From: Candidatus Laterigemmans baculatus
GTDB lineage: Bacteria; Planctomycetota; Planctomycetia; Pirellulales; Pirellulaceae
Reading direction: 5' to 3'
DNA length: 64,000 nt
Assembly (NCBI RefSeq): GCF_010367455.1
Contig: NZ_WRPR01000055.1
Span: forward strand, 1 to 64,000
Positions 1 to 54,378 of the stretch are shown here, piece by piece (the first letter of the stretch is position 1; the number at the start of each line of letters is the position of its first letter). The position numbers and the translations under genes were made by a program. A model generated the notes under the pieces. It was not told the DNA's origin and did not search any database. It saw only the letters and a list, made by a program, of their open reading frames with translations.

Positions 1-397
1 CAAAGAGAATCGCGAAAATGTTTGGGGGTGAAGGTCAAGCGATTGCCGCGATTCCCTTCGGGGGAGAGGGGGCTAAAAACTGCACGACCTCCGGGGAGAG
101 GGTGGCGTCGTTGCGACTCACCCGATCCGCGAGCGAACCCAGTCGTCTGGGGTTGCGTCATGGTGAGAGGCGTTGACGGGGGGTAGTACGGTTCTTTAAG
201 CTTCGCCCGGGCTCTCGGTCGTTACTTTCTCGTGGAACGGGTGTTGTCCACGAGCGCCGAGGCTGAATTCCTTTGTCGCCCGCTCCGTTGCTTGGCCGAA
301 GGGGCCGTTGGTTCCCCTGGACGCTGCGATTTGGCTCCGAACTTTGCCGATCGAGTGATCTGTGCCGTGGCGGCGACCTCCTGGAGATTTTGGTTCG
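1..397 (+). other. 5' region and leader of rpsB, no gene seen
   Basis: There is no convincing coding frame here; the reading frames that cross it are short and lack protein-like composition. A loose promoter-like pair, TTGACG at 173-178 and TTTAAG at 195-200, precedes rpsB by about 200 bp, so the operon may have a long leader. Leaders of rpsB-tsf operons are often autoregulated by S2 in other bacteria, but I cannot identify an S2-binding fold here. The segment at about 57-112 contains G-rich, CCGGGGAGAGGG-like words that loosely resemble the arms of the CCCTCCC repeat family found elsewhere in the window. Confidence 0.3.
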
Positions 398-1159
398 ATG
401 GCCGATTCGATCGTTAAAGACATGATTGAGGCGGGTGTGCACTTTGGACACCGCACCAGCCTTTGGAATCCGAAGATGGCTCCGTACATCTTCGGCAAGA
501 AAAATCAGATCCACGTGCTCGACATCCGCGAGACCCTGCGGGGGCTGCTGCGGGCGAAGAAGTACCTCAGCCAAGTCGCCGCCGGCGGCAGCTTGATCCT
601 GTTCGTCGGGACCAAGCGTCAGGCGGGGGAAGCGATCGAAGAGCAAGCGTTGCGGTGCGGAATGCCCTTTATCTCTGAGCGCTGGCTCGGTGGCACGCTG
701 ACCAACTTCCGCACGATTCGCAGCCGGCTGACTCGGCTCGAAGAGCTCGAGGCGATGCGGGAAGGCGACATGCTGGGTAACTACAGCAAGAAGATGCAGT
801 CGGCCCTGAACCGCGAGTACCGCAAGATGTACCGCAACCTGAACGGTCTGCGGACGATGAACCGGCTGCCCGAGTGCCTCGTGATCATCGACCCGGGCAA
901 GGAGCGGAATGCGGTGCGTGAGGCCAAGCGGCTCGGGATCAGCACCGTGGCCCTGATCGACACCGACAGCAATCCCGATCTGATCGACCTGCCGATCCCC
1001 GGCAACGACGACGGGATCCGCTCGGTCGAGCTGATCGTCAAGCAGTTGGCCGACGCGGTGATCGCCGGCAAGGGAGAAAATCCCGACGCGGCCAAGGGCG
1101 AAGCTCCGGCGGCCGAAGCGGCGACGAGCCAAACCGAGAACGAATCGGTCGCCAGCTAG
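398..1159 (+). CDS. rpsB: 30S ribosomal protein S2
   Basis: This is a 253-residue small-subunit ribosomal protein S2. The N-terminal family signature [15 protein letters not shown] is at about residues 11-25, followed by the central motifs [13 protein letters not shown] and [12 protein letters not shown] and the block [21 protein letters not shown] chose the ATG at 398 because homologous sequence begins there and GGAG lies at 383-386; the frame stays open upstream to 362, but those residues do not look like S2. The last 25 or so residues are an Ala/Glu-rich tail typical of bacterial S2. It is followed on the same strand by tsf, the usual rpsB-tsf order, so co-transcription is likely. Confidence 0.97.
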
Positions 1160-17549: not shown

Positions 17550-17827
17550 TTCAGGTAGCAGGTTTTTCATCGTACTCGTACTCAGCGCAGCGGTACTCGT
17601 ACTCGTACTCGAATCCGGTCCAGCGATTTCCACAATCCCGACTCGAGTACCGCTGTGCTGAGTACGAGTACCGCTGTGCTGAGTACGAGTACCGCTGTGC
17701 TGAGTACGAGTACCGCTTCGCTGAGTACGAGTACCGCTTCGCTGAGTACGAGTACCGCTTCGCTGAGTACGAGTACCGCTTCGCTGAGTACGAGTACCGC
17801 TTCGCTGAGTACGTCCTGCTACCTGAA
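17550..17827. repeat. Family D array: GTACTC/GAGTAC repeats bounded by inverted repeats
   Basis: A perfect 13-bp inverted repeat bounds the block: TTCAGGTAGCAGG at 17550-17562 and CCTGCTACCTGAA at 17815-17827. Inside, GTACTC hexamers and related words lead to eight tandem copies of a 21-bp unit (CGAGTACCGCTGTGCTGAGT plus A) at 17644-17811. The first three copies read TGTGCT and the last five TTCGCT. The tandem gives open frames that are not real genes. A second block with the same boundaries is at 36807-37075. It lies between convergent genes. Confidence 0.88.
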
Positions 17828-19089: not shown

Positions 19090-19410
19090 ATGGCGACTGC
19101 CACACAGAAACCGAAGACCAGCGTCAAATTGCAACCGATCGGCGAGCGGATTGTTTTGCAGCGGGAAGAGGGCGAGGACGTGACCAAGGGGGGAATCGTG
19201 CTCCCTGATTCGGCGAAGGAGAAGCCGGCCCGCGGGACGGTCGTGGCGCTCGGGACGGGCAAGCTGCTCGACGATGGGACGCGGTCGAAGAGCCAGTTGA
19301 AGGAAGGCGACCGCGTGCTCTTCAGCAGCTACGCGGGCGAGACCGTGGAGATCGGCAACGTCGAGTACCTGTTGATGCGCGAGGACGACGTCCTGGCTGT
19401 CATCGGCTGA
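19090..19410 (+). CDS. groES: Co-chaperonin GroES
   Basis: This 106-residue co-chaperonin forms the heptameric lid of GroEL. The N-terminus is extended by about ten residues (MATATQKPKTS) before the canonical VKLQPIGERIVLQREE. The mobile loop EDVTKGGIVLPDSAKEKP is intact, as are RGTVVALGTGKLLDDG and VLFSSYAGETVEIGNVEYLLMREDDVLAVI. A clear GGAGGTGAG Shine-Dalgarno precedes the ATG. It lies 86 bp before groEL and about 125 bp after a sigma-54-like promoter. Confidence 0.97.
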   Translation: MATATQKPKTSVKLQPIGERIVLQREEGEDVTKGGIVLPDSAKEKPARGTVVALGTGKLLDDGTRSKSQLKEGDRVLFSSYAGETVEIGNVEYLLMREDDVLAVIG

Positions 19411-19490: not shown

Positions 19491-21119
<1,629 letters not shown>

Positions 21120-21170
21120 GATCGCCGTGCGTAAGGATCGCGGTGCAATCGCACGCGAATCTCCAAGCCA

Positions 21171-21207
21171 ACCCCGGTGCTCGGCGAGCGAGCATCGGGG
21201 TTTTTTT
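21171..21207 (+). terminator. Rho-independent terminator of groESL
   Basis: ACCCCGGTGCTCG pairs with CGAGCATCGGGGT, with one G.U pair and a short loop, followed by a run of T from 21200. It is located 50 bp after the groEL stop. Confidence 0.92.
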
Positions 21208-21290: not shown

Positions 21291-21311
21291 GTACTGAGTA
21301 CTGAGTACTGC
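21291..21311. repeat. Short TACTGAG heptanucleotide tract
   Basis: Three tandem copies of a 7-bp GTACTGA word lie just after the groESL terminator and before the operon at 21388. The same 7-bp word forms a longer tract within 36943-36990 and, as its complement, at the end of fliW. Confidence 0.8.
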
Positions 21312-21387
21312 GGACGCAAGCCTCAGCCGGCCTCGGTTCGACTCCTGCTCCCGAATCCCGCTTGACCTTTCCCTTTGGAGAACCGCG

Positions 21388-22734
21388 ATGAATGGGCCTC
21401 GCCGTCGCGCGATCCTGGCCGGCCTGCTGTTGTGGGGACTGGTCGGGGGCGTCACGACGTACGCGCTTTGGGACTCCGGGGCGACGGCTCCGGTATCCGC
21501 TTCGGGATCGCCCCCGCCGTCGGTTCCGTTCCAACTCAGTCGCTACTTCACGACCGGTTCCGCTTCGTTGCAGCTGAGCGTGCCGGCACCGGTGAGCCTG
21601 CGACGCGGCGATCCGATTTTCACCCTCGATGCCAAAGGGAACTGGATACAGGCGGGGTACCTGACCGCCACCGCGCAGGGCGAACGGGCCAAAGCGGGCA
21701 CCCTTGCCACGGCCCTCTGGTATAGCTCGGCGGTCGATCCGGATCGGTGCCGGTTCGAGTATCACCGCAATCGGGGCAGCCTGGGCGAGGTCGTGCGAAC
21801 GCTGCTGCCACCGGAGAAGCGAGAGCGGATTGAGGATTTGATCCGGGAATCGATCGAGCTCAACGCCGCAGATATCACCGCGGCGATCCGGCCGATTGTG
21901 ACCCGCTCGCTCACCCAGTCGGTGCCGGTGGTGGAACGGGCGCTCAAGCGTTCGATCGCCGCCCATCGCGACGAGCTGGAAACGCTCGGCGAACGCTATC
22001 GGGAGGAGATCGTCAACGAACGGCTCCTGCCGCTAGTCCGCGAAGAGGTGATGCCGAGCGTGCGAAAGCATGGCCAGCCGGTCGCCGAGGAGATCGGTCG
22101 CGAGCTTTGGGAGCGGGCGTCGCTGTGGCGGTTTGGCTGGCGTGCCCTGTACGACCGAACGCCGCTACCGGAGCGCGACTTGTTCAAGGATGAATGGGAG
22201 CGATTCGTCAACGAAGAGGCGATTCCGGTATTCGAACAGCACATGGACGAGCTGATCGAGGCCCAGCGGCGGGTCTTCGCGGAGATGTCCCGCAACCCGC
22301 GAGTCCGCGAGGAGCTCGGGGAAGTGGTCCAGGAACTGGCCAGGGACCAGGAGCTGCAACAGCTGGTGACGGCGATCGTGCGGGAGTCGATTCTGGAGAA
22401 TCAAGAGCTCCGCGACGTGTGGGCCGAGAATTGGCGGCAGGAGGACGCCCGCCGCGCCATCCGCTTGACCGGCCAGCGTCTCGACCCGGTGGTTCGCCAG
22501 ATCGGTGACGAGATTTTTGGCACCCGCGAAACGGGCATCGAGCCCGCCTTTGCCAAGGTGCTTCGCAATCAAATCCTGGGCAAAGACCGCCGCTGGATCG
22601 TCGCCATTCCCAGCGACCAGACGGTCCATCGCGGCGAGGTCTATCCGGTCCGCATCGCCACCGAAAGCGAACCCTTTCCGCTGCTCATCCTCGCCTCGCC
22701 CCCCGAAGAATTGCCCCACGAACCGCTCGAATGA
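21388..22734 (+). CDS. Membrane-anchored helical protein of an Mla-like operon, novel
   Basis: This 448-residue protein has one N-terminal membrane segment (ILAGLLLWGLVGGVTTYAL) and a large, probably extracytoplasmic, remainder. A short beta-rich section with LRRGDPIFTLDAKGNWIQAGYL (about residues 72-92) is followed by 250 residues of charged helix (for example RIEDLIRESIELNAADIT and EELGEVVQELARDQELQQL), then another beta-rich end near RWIVAIPSDQTVHRGEVYPVRI. I do not recognise a family. It has no canonical MCE motif. Its stop overlaps the start of the ABC ATPase-permease fusion (ATGA), so the two are translationally coupled. It occupies the place an MCE-type (MlaD-like) periplasmic subunit would take, and that is my inference for its role. 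Confidence 0.72.
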   Translation: MNGPRRRAILAGLLLWGLVGGVTTYALWDSGATAPVSASGSPPPSVPFQLSRYFTTGSASLQLSVPAPVSLRRGDPIFTLDAKGNWIQAGYLTATAQGERAKAGTLATALWYSSAVDPDRCRFEYHRNRGSLGEVVRTLLPPEKRERIEDLIRESIELNAADITAAIRPIVTRSLTQSVPVVERALKRSIAAHRDELETLGERYREEIVNERLLPLVREEVMPSVRKHGQPVAEEIGRELWERASLWRFGWRALYDRTPLPERDLFKDEWERFVNEEAIPVFEQHMDELIEAQRRVFAEMSRNPRVREELGEVVQELARDQELQQLVTAIVRESILENQELRDVWAENWRQEDARRAIRLTGQRLDPVVRQIGDEIFGTRETGIEPAFAKVLRNQILGKDRRWIVAIPSDQTVHRGEVYPVRIATESEPFPLLILASPPEELPHEPLE

Positions 22735-24386
22735 AACGCCCGTTGATCCTCCACCACGTGACGGTCGAAGCTGGCGGCCAACGCTTGCTCAGCGACGTGT
22801 CGGTGGAAATGCCCGATGGACAGATCACCGTCATCGTCGGCGGAAGCGGTGCCGGTAAATCGGTGCTGCTGCGGATTCTCGCGGGGCTGATCCCACAGAC
22901 CGACGGGGTGATTCGCTGGACCGGTGCGATCGATCACGGTCCCGGTGGATCGCTCGGCCGCATCGGAATCGTGTTTCAGCAATTTGCCCTGTTCGACGAA
23001 CTCTCGCCGCTGGCCAACGTGCGCTTTGCGGTTGACCATCGGCGGCGAAAAGACCAACCGCCGGAACAGACGCCGCGACAGTGGCTCGAGGAGCTTCGCG
23101 TCCCCGTGGGCGTTCCCGTCGCTGCGCTCAGCGGAGGTCAGAAGCAACGGCTGGCGATCGCCCGCACGCTGGCGGCCGACCCCGAAGTCGTGCTGTACGA
23201 CGAGCCAACCTCCGGCTTGGATGCGGCCAGCGGGCGGCAGGTGGCTCGCTTGATCCGCCGCACGCAGGAGACGCATCGACGCACGAGCATCGTCGTCACG
23301 CACGACTACGAAACCCTGCTTCCGATCGCCGACCACGTGTTGCTGCTCGACTCGGAAACAAAGCAGCTCGTTCCGGTGCCCCGCCAGCAGTGGGAAGAAA
23401 TCCCCGACCGGATGCAACCGGTGCGGCGGCCCGACGATCCGCAGCGAAAGCTCGAACCGCCGGCGGAAACGCCCCCCGATGCTGCCAAGACGCCTGCTGC
23501 GAAGACGCCTGCTGCGAAGTCGACTGCGGCGAAGAAGGGTGGCTCGCGGGAAGGGGCGCATTGGCTCGGCCGCTCGGGCCAGCGGAGCGTGACGGCGGTC
23601 GGGGATCTGCTGGAGACCAGCGGGCATGCGCTGCTCAGTATGCTGCGGCTGCCGCTGGACCTGATTCCCCGCTGGCCCCGCGTCGGCTGGGGGCTGCGGT
23701 TTTTGGCCCATTACCTGCGGTTGGTCTGCGGCCCATCGGCGTGGGTCTATCTGTGGTTCAGCGGGTTGATCGTGGGCTTCACATCGACCTACTTCACCTT
23801 CCGCTTTTTGCCCTACGAGTTGTACACCAAGCCGTTGTTGCTGGAGGATTTGCTGGCGGCGATCGGGTTTGCCCTCTATCGAGTGCTGGTGCCGGTGCTC
23901 GCGACCGTGCTGGTTGCCGCCCGCTGCGGTGCCGCGGTGGCCGCGGACGTGGGGGTCAAACGCTACGGAGCGCAGGTCGAAGCACTGCAGACTCTGGGGG
24001 TTCGTCCGCCGGCTTACTTGCTGACGCCGATTCTGATCGCGTTCATTGTGGGGACGCCGATTCTCGAGGCGATCGCCTTCCACTCGGCCCGCCTGATCAG
24101 CATGGTCAGTTTTATCGCCACCCATCCCCAGCAAGGTCCTTATTTCTGGGAGCTGCACTTCGCCAGTCGTCTGCACCAGAGCGACTCGCTGGTCTACAAC
24201 GGCTTTGGATGGCTGATGCTGAAGACCGTGCTCTGCGGAGTGGGCGTGGCCGCGATCAGCTATTACCGGGGGCTGCGGCCCAAACAATCGGCGCGGGATG
24301 TCAGCGAGGCGATCACTTCGACGGTGCTGTGGGCCACGCTGTACGTCCTGTTCATCCACTTCCTGATAGCGTTCTACGAGTTTTAG
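22731..24386 (+). CDS. ABC transporter with fused ATPase and MlaE-type permease
   Basis: This is a single 551-residue chain. Residues 1 to about 230 are an ABC ATPase of MlaF type: Walker A GGSGAGKSVLL (about 37-47), Q-loop region FQQFALFDELS, signature LSGGQKQRLA, Walker B VVLYDEPTSGLD, and H-loop VVTHD. A linker at about 235-290 contains an AAKTPAAKTPAAKS repeat encoded by 15-bp tandem copies. Residues 290-551 are an MlaE/YrbE-like permease with several membrane spans and the family-like AARCGAAVAADVGVKRYGAQVEALQTLGV region. In known Mla systems MlaF and MlaE are separate proteins that move phospholipids between membranes. The substrate here is unknown. It is coupled to the upstream anchored protein gene by a 4-bp overlap. 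Confidence 0.85.
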   Translation: MKRPLILHHVTVEAGGQRLLSDVSVEMPDGQITVIVGGSGAGKSVLLRILAGLIPQTDGVIRWTGAIDHGPGGSLGRIGIVFQQFALFDELSPLANVRFAVDHRRRKDQPPEQTPRQWLEELRVPVGVPVAALSGGQKQRLAIARTLAADPEVVLYDEPTSGLDAASGRQVARLIRRTQETHRRTSIVVTHDYETLLPIADHVLLLDSETKQLVPVPRQQWEEIPDRMQPVRRPDDPQRKLEPPAETPPDAAKTPAAKTPAAKSTAAKKGGSREGAHWLGRSGQRSVTAVGDLLETSGHALLSMLRLPLDLIPRWPRVGWGLRFLAHYLRLVCGPSAWVYLWFSGLIVGFTSTYFTFRFLPYELYTKPLLLEDLLAAIGFALYRVLVPVLATVLVAARCGAAVAADVGVKRYGAQVEALQTLGVRPPAYLLTPILIAFIVGTPILEAIAFHSARLISMVSFIATHPQQGPYFWELHFASRLHQSDSLVYNGFGWLMLKTVLCGVGVAAISYYRGLRPKQSARDVSEAITSTVLWATLYVLFIHFLIAFYEF

Positions 24387-24388
24387 AA

Positions 24389-24559
24389 ATGGATAAGAAG
24401 GCGAAGAAGCGGCTCGAAGTGATCAACAAGAAGCTGCAGACCTTGCGCCCACGGTTGACCGGAGCCAAGCAGCAAGCCGACGACATGTCTGAAATCGCGG
24501 CGCTCGAAAAGGAGATCCAGGACTTGGAAACCGAGGCGGCGAAACTGAAGGAGTCGTGA
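24389..24559 (+). CDS. Small coiled-coil protein
   Basis: This 56-residue protein starts 2 bp after the stop of the transporter fusion. It is highly charged and predicted to be a coiled coil (KRLEVINKKLQTLRPRL; EIAALEKEIQDLETEA). The tight spacing makes co-translation with the transporter likely. Very similar short Lys/Glu-rich proteins are, as far as I recall, common in planctomycetes, with no known role. Confidence 0.72.
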   Translation: MDKKAKKRLEVINKKLQTLRPRLTGAKQQADDMSEIAALEKEIQDLETEAAKLKES

Positions 24560-36806: not shown

Positions 36807-37075
36807 TTCAGGGAGCAGGTTTCAGGTTTCAGGGAGTTTGGAACCTGAAACCCCGCTGCTTGAATCCTCGACCCTCATTTTCTCGTACTCGTACTCGTAC
36901 TCAGCGAAGCGGTACTCGTACTCGAATCGACCGCAGCGACGGGGTACTGAGTACTGAGGCGAGTACTGAGTACTGAGTACTGAGTACTGAGGCGAGTACG
37001 AGTACGAGTACGAGTACGAAAGAAATTCCGGCTCCCGGCCTTCCGCCGCCTGCCACCTAAAACCTGCTACCTGAA
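36807..37075. repeat. Family D array: GTACTC/GAGTAC and TACTGAG repeats bounded by inverted repeats
   Basis: The block is bounded by TTCAGGGAGCAGG at 36807-36819 and CCTGCTACCTGAA at 37063-37075, an inverted pair with one mismatch, matching the boundaries of the block at 17550-17827. The interior contains GTACTC hexamers, a TACTGAG 7-bp tandem at about 36943-36990, and GAGTAC hexamers at 36994-37019. No gene is seen. It fills the gap between guaA and ettA. Confidence 0.85.
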
Positions 37076-54330: not shown

Positions 54331-54378
54331 ACCCAGCACCCAGCACCCAGCACCCAGCACCCAGTACTCAGTACTCAG
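54331..54378. repeat. Heptanucleotide ACCCAGC tract ending in ACTCAGT
   Basis: About four or five tandem ACCCAGC units are followed by two TACTCAG units. The tract includes the last bases of fliW (stop codon at 54375-54377). The same 7-bp periodicity, and the complementary ACTGAGT word, occur at 21291 and 36943. Confidence 0.85.

Follow-up and report, generated by a model that had tools for sequence, protein, structure and literature searches.

Which protein serves as the periplasmic partner of an MlaE-type lipid permease when the gene beside it matches no MCE sequence family? The question is raised by a gene pair of Candidatus Laterigemmans baculatus (Planctomycetota, Pirellulaceae), located in the first 64,000 nucleotides of contig NZ_WRPR01000055.1 (assembly GCF_010367455.1; the whole of this stretch is referred to here as the window). 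The first gene, P1, encodes a long helical protein; the second, P2, encodes an ATPase and a permease as one chain; and a very small gene, P3, follows. An initial annotation of this DNA had proposed that P1 represents a different construction of the periplasmic part of an Mla-like system. The present analysis supports this proposal in part and refines the nature of the partner: judged by its predicted fold, P1 appears to be an MCE protein that is cryptic in sequence, with a helical rod splitting its barrel. We put the probability that P1 and P2 together constitute an MCE-type lipid transporter of this design at roughly two in three.

Predicted fold of P1

A model of P1 computed with AlphaFold2 (AF2) from a 56-sequence alignment has a mean predicted local distance difference test score (pLDDT) of 89.6 and a predicted template modelling score (pTM) of 0.62. 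The model contains a helix at residues 4–29, taken as membrane-spanning, which precedes strands at residues 59–65, 76–80, 86–96, 105–111, and 121–127, and then, after a long helical region, at 402–408 and 418–423. It therefore has the single N-terminal membrane helix ahead of the barrel that is usual in MCE proteins, and the single span and long helical part described in the initial annotation are both recovered. A seven-stranded MCE barrel is likewise found in the prediction, that is, in two AF2 models and in the VIA-align lists obtained with them. Because five strands come before the helical region and two after it, the latter is an insert between strands 5 and 6. The second model, for L125, a homologue sharing 26% identity with P1, reached a pLDDT of 88.1 and a pTM of 0.58 and shows the same order of elements (helix, five strands, helices, two strands).

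In the VIA-align comparison of the P1 model, MCE proteins fill the top 19 rows. LetB leads (Z 9.8, 94 residues, rmsd [root-mean-square deviation] 2.8, model range 57..427), and PqiB (Z 8.8), Mce1 (8.8), and MlaD (8.6) are among the others. Such ranges state the first and last aligned residue only, but the first strand group has just 71 residues, fewer than the 94 aligned, so the match must extend beyond it. The top ten rows for the L125 model are also MCE proteins, with MlaD at Z 9.2 (95 residues, rmsd 3.3) and LetB at 9.1. Covariation between P1 residues 57–127 and 400–425 was above that between 57–127 and each of 230 overlapping helical windows of the same size.

Profile comparison points in the same direction. 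With hhalign, a profile of P1 residues 46–141 scored 27.5 (P 1e-4) against 20 MCE domains of related genomes; none of 200 column shuffles exceeded 18.3, and the reversed profile gave 11.8. When the two strand groups of P1 were joined, 27.5 was obtained again and 200 shuffles did not exceed 19.1, but the second group was not aligned to its MCE strands.

The insert is 274 residues long in P1 and 273–293 residues long across 72 sequences. It occupies the position of the MCE β5–β6 loop, which is the pore-lining loop and which, according to PMC8420772, measures 16–27 residues in Escherichia coli PqiB1–2 and LetB, seven in PqiB3, and five in Mce4A. A short β5–β6 loop, usual though not strictly defining for MCE proteins, is thus absent from P1. 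Conservation of P1, averaged over ten-residue blocks, peaks inside the insert, at residues 241–250 (3.55 bits) and 251–260 (3.33 bits), followed by 391–400 (3.17 bits). The conserved stretch 241–260 may represent the turn of a rod that runs out and back, with its tip at this position. The helices at 142–192 and 194–243, if collinear, would extend ~150 angstroms (rise per residue, 1.5 angstroms), a value that is arithmetic and not a measurement. Two results of a covariation scan for the turn were set aside: anti-diagonal 525 (turn near residue 262) was equalled in 30% of 300 permutations, and the best anti-diagonal, 627, in 1% of 300.

Several results weigh against an MCE assignment. Pfam gave P1 no MlaD (PF02470) match at the curated score and three unrelated weak families only, and MlaD was not among the 25 families listed out of 63 in Pfam for 56 P1 homologues. 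Neither the P1 sequence (phmmer) nor its profile found a PDB match below E 0.1, the NCBIfam search gave nothing useful, and hhalign of P1 against the single E. coli MlaD found nothing. An MCE-profile hmmsearch of single P1 N-termini reached p<0.01 in 9 of 56 sequences versus 3 of 280 shuffles, a weak signal. In Foldseek, the best match was Mce1 at E 0.0057, with none at or below 0.001, which is weak on its own. Unrelated long-helix proteins reached Z 8.4 (P1) and 8.6 (L125) in the VIA-align lists, a margin of ~1 below the leading MCE rows, the rmsd in the helical part being ~27–38 angstroms. The alignments behind the two AF2 models overlap, so the models are not fully independent, and a covariation test for a turn near residues 257–262 was not significant.

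Sequence comparison alone leaves the MCE membership of P1 unsettled. The initial annotation had seen no MCE domain in P1 and had named the discovery of one as grounds for abandoning its view; its reading holds for the Pfam sequence families and fails for the predicted fold, in which such a domain is found. That view makes P1 a helical bridge of non-MCE type with small β segments, and its MCE likeness would then be a modelling artefact. It draws on the missing family match, the weak Foldseek E-values, and the weak single-sequence signal. We regard it as unlikely, although it survives better than the other alternatives considered below: two models of proteins 26% identical agree, even if their alignments overlap; MCE rows head both VIA-align lists; and the profile comparison exceeds its shuffles. 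As for other β-rich folds, LptA and LptC (β-jellyroll) are absent among the fold matches listed for both models. With hhalign, the single E. coli LptC gave an edge match of 12–13 residues only, and LptA, MlaC, and MacA gave no convincing match, results to be read beside the equally negative comparison with the single E. coli MlaD.

The ATPase–permease fusion

P2 combines an ATPase and an MlaE-type permease in a single 551-residue chain, as first annotated, and both halves were matched by Pfam: ABC_tran at residues 20–161 and MlaE (PF02405) at residues 364–547, the latter with 104 bits against a cut-off of 22.5 and over model positions 34–210 of 212 (E-values in Table 1). The Walker A, Q-loop, LSGGQ signature, Walker B, and H-loop motifs are intact in an alignment of 43 fusion sequences.

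The ATPase had also been called MlaF type, an assignment for which NCBIfam ranking, signature motif, and tree provide no support. The NCBIfam MlaF model ranks first for E. coli MlaF (581 bits), but for the ATPase half of P2 it falls outside the best 25 of 82 matches, the top one being CysA (135.5 bits). The signature reads LSGGQ in the fusions versus SGGMRKR in planctomycete MlaF rows. In a midpoint-rooted tree, with long branches and unsure rooting, the fusion ATPases form one group separate from the planctomycete MlaF rows; the tree speaks to this grouping only and not to the origin of the fusion ATPases. A scan of viral contigs with P2 found no relative.

Distribution of P1 and the fusion

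Two samples were used, the first comprising 147 genomes (including that of the window) and the second 392 genomes drawn from Planctomycetota; searches for the fusion covered this phylum and were accompanied by a single scan of GTDB genomes with a strict P1 pattern. P1 and the fusion co-occur through Planctomycetota. In the first sample, P1 was present in 36 genomes, all of which also contain a weak-scoring, fusion-type MlaE (E 1e-34 to 1e-21). It adjoins P1 in 22 of them, and with the window itself excluded P2 aligns over at least 542 residues in 20 of 21 adjacent cases. In the other 14 (G006, G011, G014, G032, G038, G042, G045, G071, G074, G077, G098, G115, G128, and G137) it lies on another contig or at a distance from P1; ATPase and permease share one frame in 13 of these, and in G137 the contig begins inside the gene, hiding the ATPase half. 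The P1 contig stops soon past P1 in G042, G115, and G128. P1 is missing from 111 genomes, of which 106 show no more than one MlaE match. A second, unfused match was found in G087, G090, and G094; G083, which is 72% complete, encodes the fusion in one frame without a P1 match; and G124 has a second MlaE outside the matches listed, with no fusion in the stretch fetched there.

In the phylum sample, where a fusion-type MlaE was defined by E ≤1e-40 with a profile of fusion permeases, P1 was found in 41 genomes, the fusion in 48, and both in 38 (Fisher p 6e-40, calculated on species that are not independent). Thirty-nine of the P1 genomes are not part of the first sample, and 31 of these have the weaker MlaE on the contig of P1, within ~3 kb. 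In the other eight, an ATPase stretch past P1 is followed by the contig end (G204 and G284), the contig stops soon past P1 (G211, G309, G335, G424, and G462), or the fusion is present at another place in the genome (G179). P1 occurs without a fusion-type MlaE match in G284, G309, and G462. With these three and G083 in the samples, strict one-to-one pairing of P1 and fusion in every genome was dropped as a rule.

Ten genomes carry the fusion without a P1 match, and an eleventh (G333) has a marginal one. Upstream sequence was available at nine of these 11 divergent fusion loci, the other two being at a contig edge, and in all nine a P1-like frame directly precedes the fusion (E 1.3e-9 to 2.6e-5); other frames at the nine loci scored E 0.08 or worse. 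At six loci (L159–L161 and L166–L168, from G262, G388, G320, G366, G246, and G397), a P1 relative of ~345–505 aa stands before the divergent fusion, and several of the six share similar neighbour frames. Neighbour frames at two divergent loci had no Pfam match.

The strict pattern scan covered 84,980 species genomes and returned 80 stretches, of which 59 were confirmed, all titled planctomycetes and including Rhodopirellula, Rubripirellula, Stieleria, Roseimaritima, and Mariniblastus. According to our own open reading frame (ORF) list, a P1 frame is present at 57 named loci, and a P2 frame lies just downstream at 43; at least 500 residues of P2 are aligned at 42 of these and 264 at L098. With first-start ORFs, the exact 4-bp overlap of P1 and P2 recurs in 24 of the 43 adjacent pairs. 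At the other 14 loci, the contig is too short in two and there is no P2 in 12, some of which are on short contigs. The reading frames of P1 and P2 are thus conserved across other genomes and, for this reason, are more than chance ORFs.

P3 behaves differently. It was found in 129 of the 147 genomes, comprising 32 of the 36 P1 genomes and 97 of the 111 others, at 39–77% identity in 128 of the 146 other genomes, and in some genomes with P1 elsewhere (G045, G011, and G006) it lies just past the fusion. No Pfam family scored above its cut-off. Since it is found with or without P1, a role as third component was rejected; P3 is a conserved small planctomycete protein and not a defining part of the system.

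The ordinary Mla system in genomes with P1

The genome of the window contains one MCE match and one ordinary MlaE, both in an MlaE–MlaF–MlaD set with an MlaD of 412 aa; within the window, no MCE or MlaE match beyond P1/P2 was found. The initial annotation had named common MlaF–MlaE fusions with a normal MCE partner elsewhere in the genome as a finding that would undermine its proposal. This objection holds in part, since the ordinary set exists, but that set has its own unfused MlaE. In 32 of 36 P1 genomes, MCE-domain matches equal unfused MlaE matches in number, which leaves the fusion usually without a conventional MCE protein and fits P1 in that role; MCE matches outnumber unfused MlaE in G013, G045, G049, and G066. 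A third, unfused MlaE type, with E about 1e-37 to 1e-55, was observed in G087, G090, G094, G006, and others.

One genome, G137 (93% complete), has P1 and a fusion-type MlaE without any ordinary MlaE or MCE match and may show the variant occurring naturally on its own. It bears on the possibility that P1/P2 is a degenerate or redundant copy of ordinary Mla with no separate job, to which the coexisting MlaE–MlaF–MlaD set lends some plausibility. Besides this genome, the strong conservation of the ATPase motifs and of the middle of P1 and the co-occurrence of the pair through the phylum speak against redundancy, which we consider improbable.

Proposed mechanism

If P1 and P2 form an MCE-type transporter with a split barrel, a P2 dimer would provide the inner-membrane ABC core, and P1, anchored by its N-terminal helix, would form an MCE-barrel ring above it, as MlaD does above MlaFE; both roles are proposed by analogy with the MlaFED, LetB, and Mce1 complexes. 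The 274-residue helical rod would stand in for the pore-lining loop of each barrel, running out into the periplasm, turning at the strongly conserved WRFGWRxxYDxxPLP segment, and returning to strand 6. Six rods could then build a lipid-conducting tube or bridge whose tip docks on another envelope component. We infer the hexamer, the tube, the rod geometry, the lipid cargo, and the docking of the tip from these predictions. The broader idea of a separate, phylum-wide class of MCE machines is more tentative and in our estimate falls a little short of an even chance. In such machines, what was the pore-lining loop would now span the periplasm, with six out-and-back rods rising from within the ring, a conserved docking tip, and a one-chain ATPase–permease whose ATPase did not come from MlaF; an MCE ring would then bridge the periplasm in the manner of a membrane-fusion protein.

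The remaining alternative, a MacA/HlyD-like periplasmic adaptor of the membrane-fusion type with a helical hairpin in its β domain that has been recruited to an MlaE pump, is the least probable of all: adaptors, which have lipoyl and barrel domains on either side of a hairpin, have the order helix, strands, long helices, strands, which the element order of P1 resembles, and the conserved segment in the middle of the insert would suit a docking hairpin, but no adaptor is found among the 50 matches listed per model (absence from a list not being exclusion), MCE proteins lead both lists, and hhalign against the single E. coli MacA was negative, as it also was against the single E. coli MlaD.

Gene organization

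The features of the locus are listed in Table 1. The gene layout given in the initial annotation, with the ATGA overlap of P1 and P2 and a 2-bp interval before P3, was verified from the ORFs. The stem-loop downstream of groEL probably sets P1 apart from the groES–groEL unit. No σ70-type promoter was found between positions 21100 and 24700. Beyond P3, a protein-kinase-like frame lies on the opposite strand.

Table 1. Features of the P1/P2 locus and its surroundings (positions in the window).
Feature	Position	Strand	Description and basis
GroES-like gene	19090–19410		labelled by sequence, without a search
GroEL-like gene	19497–21119		labelled by sequence, without a search
Intrinsic-terminator-like stem-loop with T tail	21170–21202	+	14-pair stem, 3' of groEL; consensus scan and sequence reading
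GGAG	21377–21380	+	likely ribosome-binding site of P1, 7 bases upstream of the start; sequence reading
P1	21388–22734	+	ORF, 448 aa; single-span protein, predicted MCE barrel split by helical insert
P1 N-terminal membrane helix	21397–21474	+	residues 4–29; AF2 helix; conserved G12 and W16
P1 MCE strands 1–5 (predicted)	21556–21768	+	residues 57–127; AF2 strands, VIA-align matches from residue 57, hhalign to MCE
P1 helical insert	21769–22590	+	residues 128–401 (274 residues); AF2 helices between 132 and 396; β5–β6 position
P1 proposed rod tip, SLWRFGWRALYDRTPLP	22120–22170	+	residues 245–261; many invariant columns, in the most conserved stretch
P1 MCE strands 6–7 (predicted)	22591–22668	+	residues 402–427; AF2 strands; VIA-align matches reach residue 427
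ATGA	22731–22734	+	P1 stop overlapping P2 start
P2	22731–24386	+	ORF, 551 aa; ATPase–permease fusion; Pfam ABC_tran 3.6e-25, MlaE 1.1e-29
P2 nucleotide-binding domain	22731–23420	+	residues 1–230; ATPase motifs kept in 43-sequence alignment
P2 linker	23421–23570	+	residues 231–280, low-complexity, with 15-bp tandem repeat; sequence, Tandem Repeats Finder (23480–23535)
P2 MlaE-type permease	23571–24383	+	residues 281–551; Pfam PF02405 and alignment
P3	24389–24559	+	56 aa, coiled-coil-like; begins 2 bp past P2; neighbour, probably no component

Two repeats were also noted. The sequence AGTACTGAGTACT has five copies in the window, compared with 0.00 expected from shuffles, at places including 21297–21309, 36962–36988, and 54363–54375; the first of these lies in the leader upstream of P1. 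The sequence may represent an intergenic repeat element. A 21-bp repeat, CGAGTACCGCTTCGCTGAGTA, occurs in eight copies at 17644–17813, downstream of a 511-aa frame.

Relationship to known systems and significance

P1/P2 is best regarded as a variant of MCE transport and not as a new category. As in the Mla system (MlaFEDB) of E. coli and others, an MlaE-type permease, an ABC ATPase, and a single-span protein with a (here predicted) MCE fold are encoded together; unlike Mla, ATPase and permease are fused, the ATPase is not MlaF-like, and the barrel carries the 274-residue insert. No account of a P1-like protein or of an MlaE–ATPase fusion was found in searches of open-licence PMC papers. The minimal MlaEFD system of Veillonella parvula likewise has three functions only, a long MCE protein, and a proposed role as envelope bridge (PMC10665443). 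In its MlaD, however, the long part comes after the MCE domain, and the protein also has an outer-membrane barrel, whereas the helices of P1 would lie inside the barrel and the chain returns; the survey in the same paper describes MlaD of the PVC group without the outer-membrane barrel. LetB and PqiB of E. coli share the MCE barrel fold and, in LetB and PqiB1–2, long pore-lining loops, but these loops have 16–27 residues (PMC8420772), compared with 274 in P1, and several MCE domains are present per chain instead of one. The Mce1 complex of Mycobacterium smegmatis resembles the proposed arrangement in setting an MCE ring and a helical needle on an ABC core, the needle being C-terminal to the MCE domains and made of six different chains, in which it differs from P1 (PMC9882608). 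In Mpc of Brucella abortus, too, the MCE protein carries a long helical tunnel that is predicted to reach across the periplasm; unlike P1/P2, this system has separate MpcE and MpcF and an additional partner, MpcA (PMC12436622).

If the split-barrel reading of P1 is correct, MCE proteins would have a further site at which a bridge can be built, inside the barrel as opposed to after it or by stacked rings. It would also follow that MCE proteins can escape family searches. The gene pair would then be open to knockout in cultured relatives, for example, Rhodopirellula and Stieleria.

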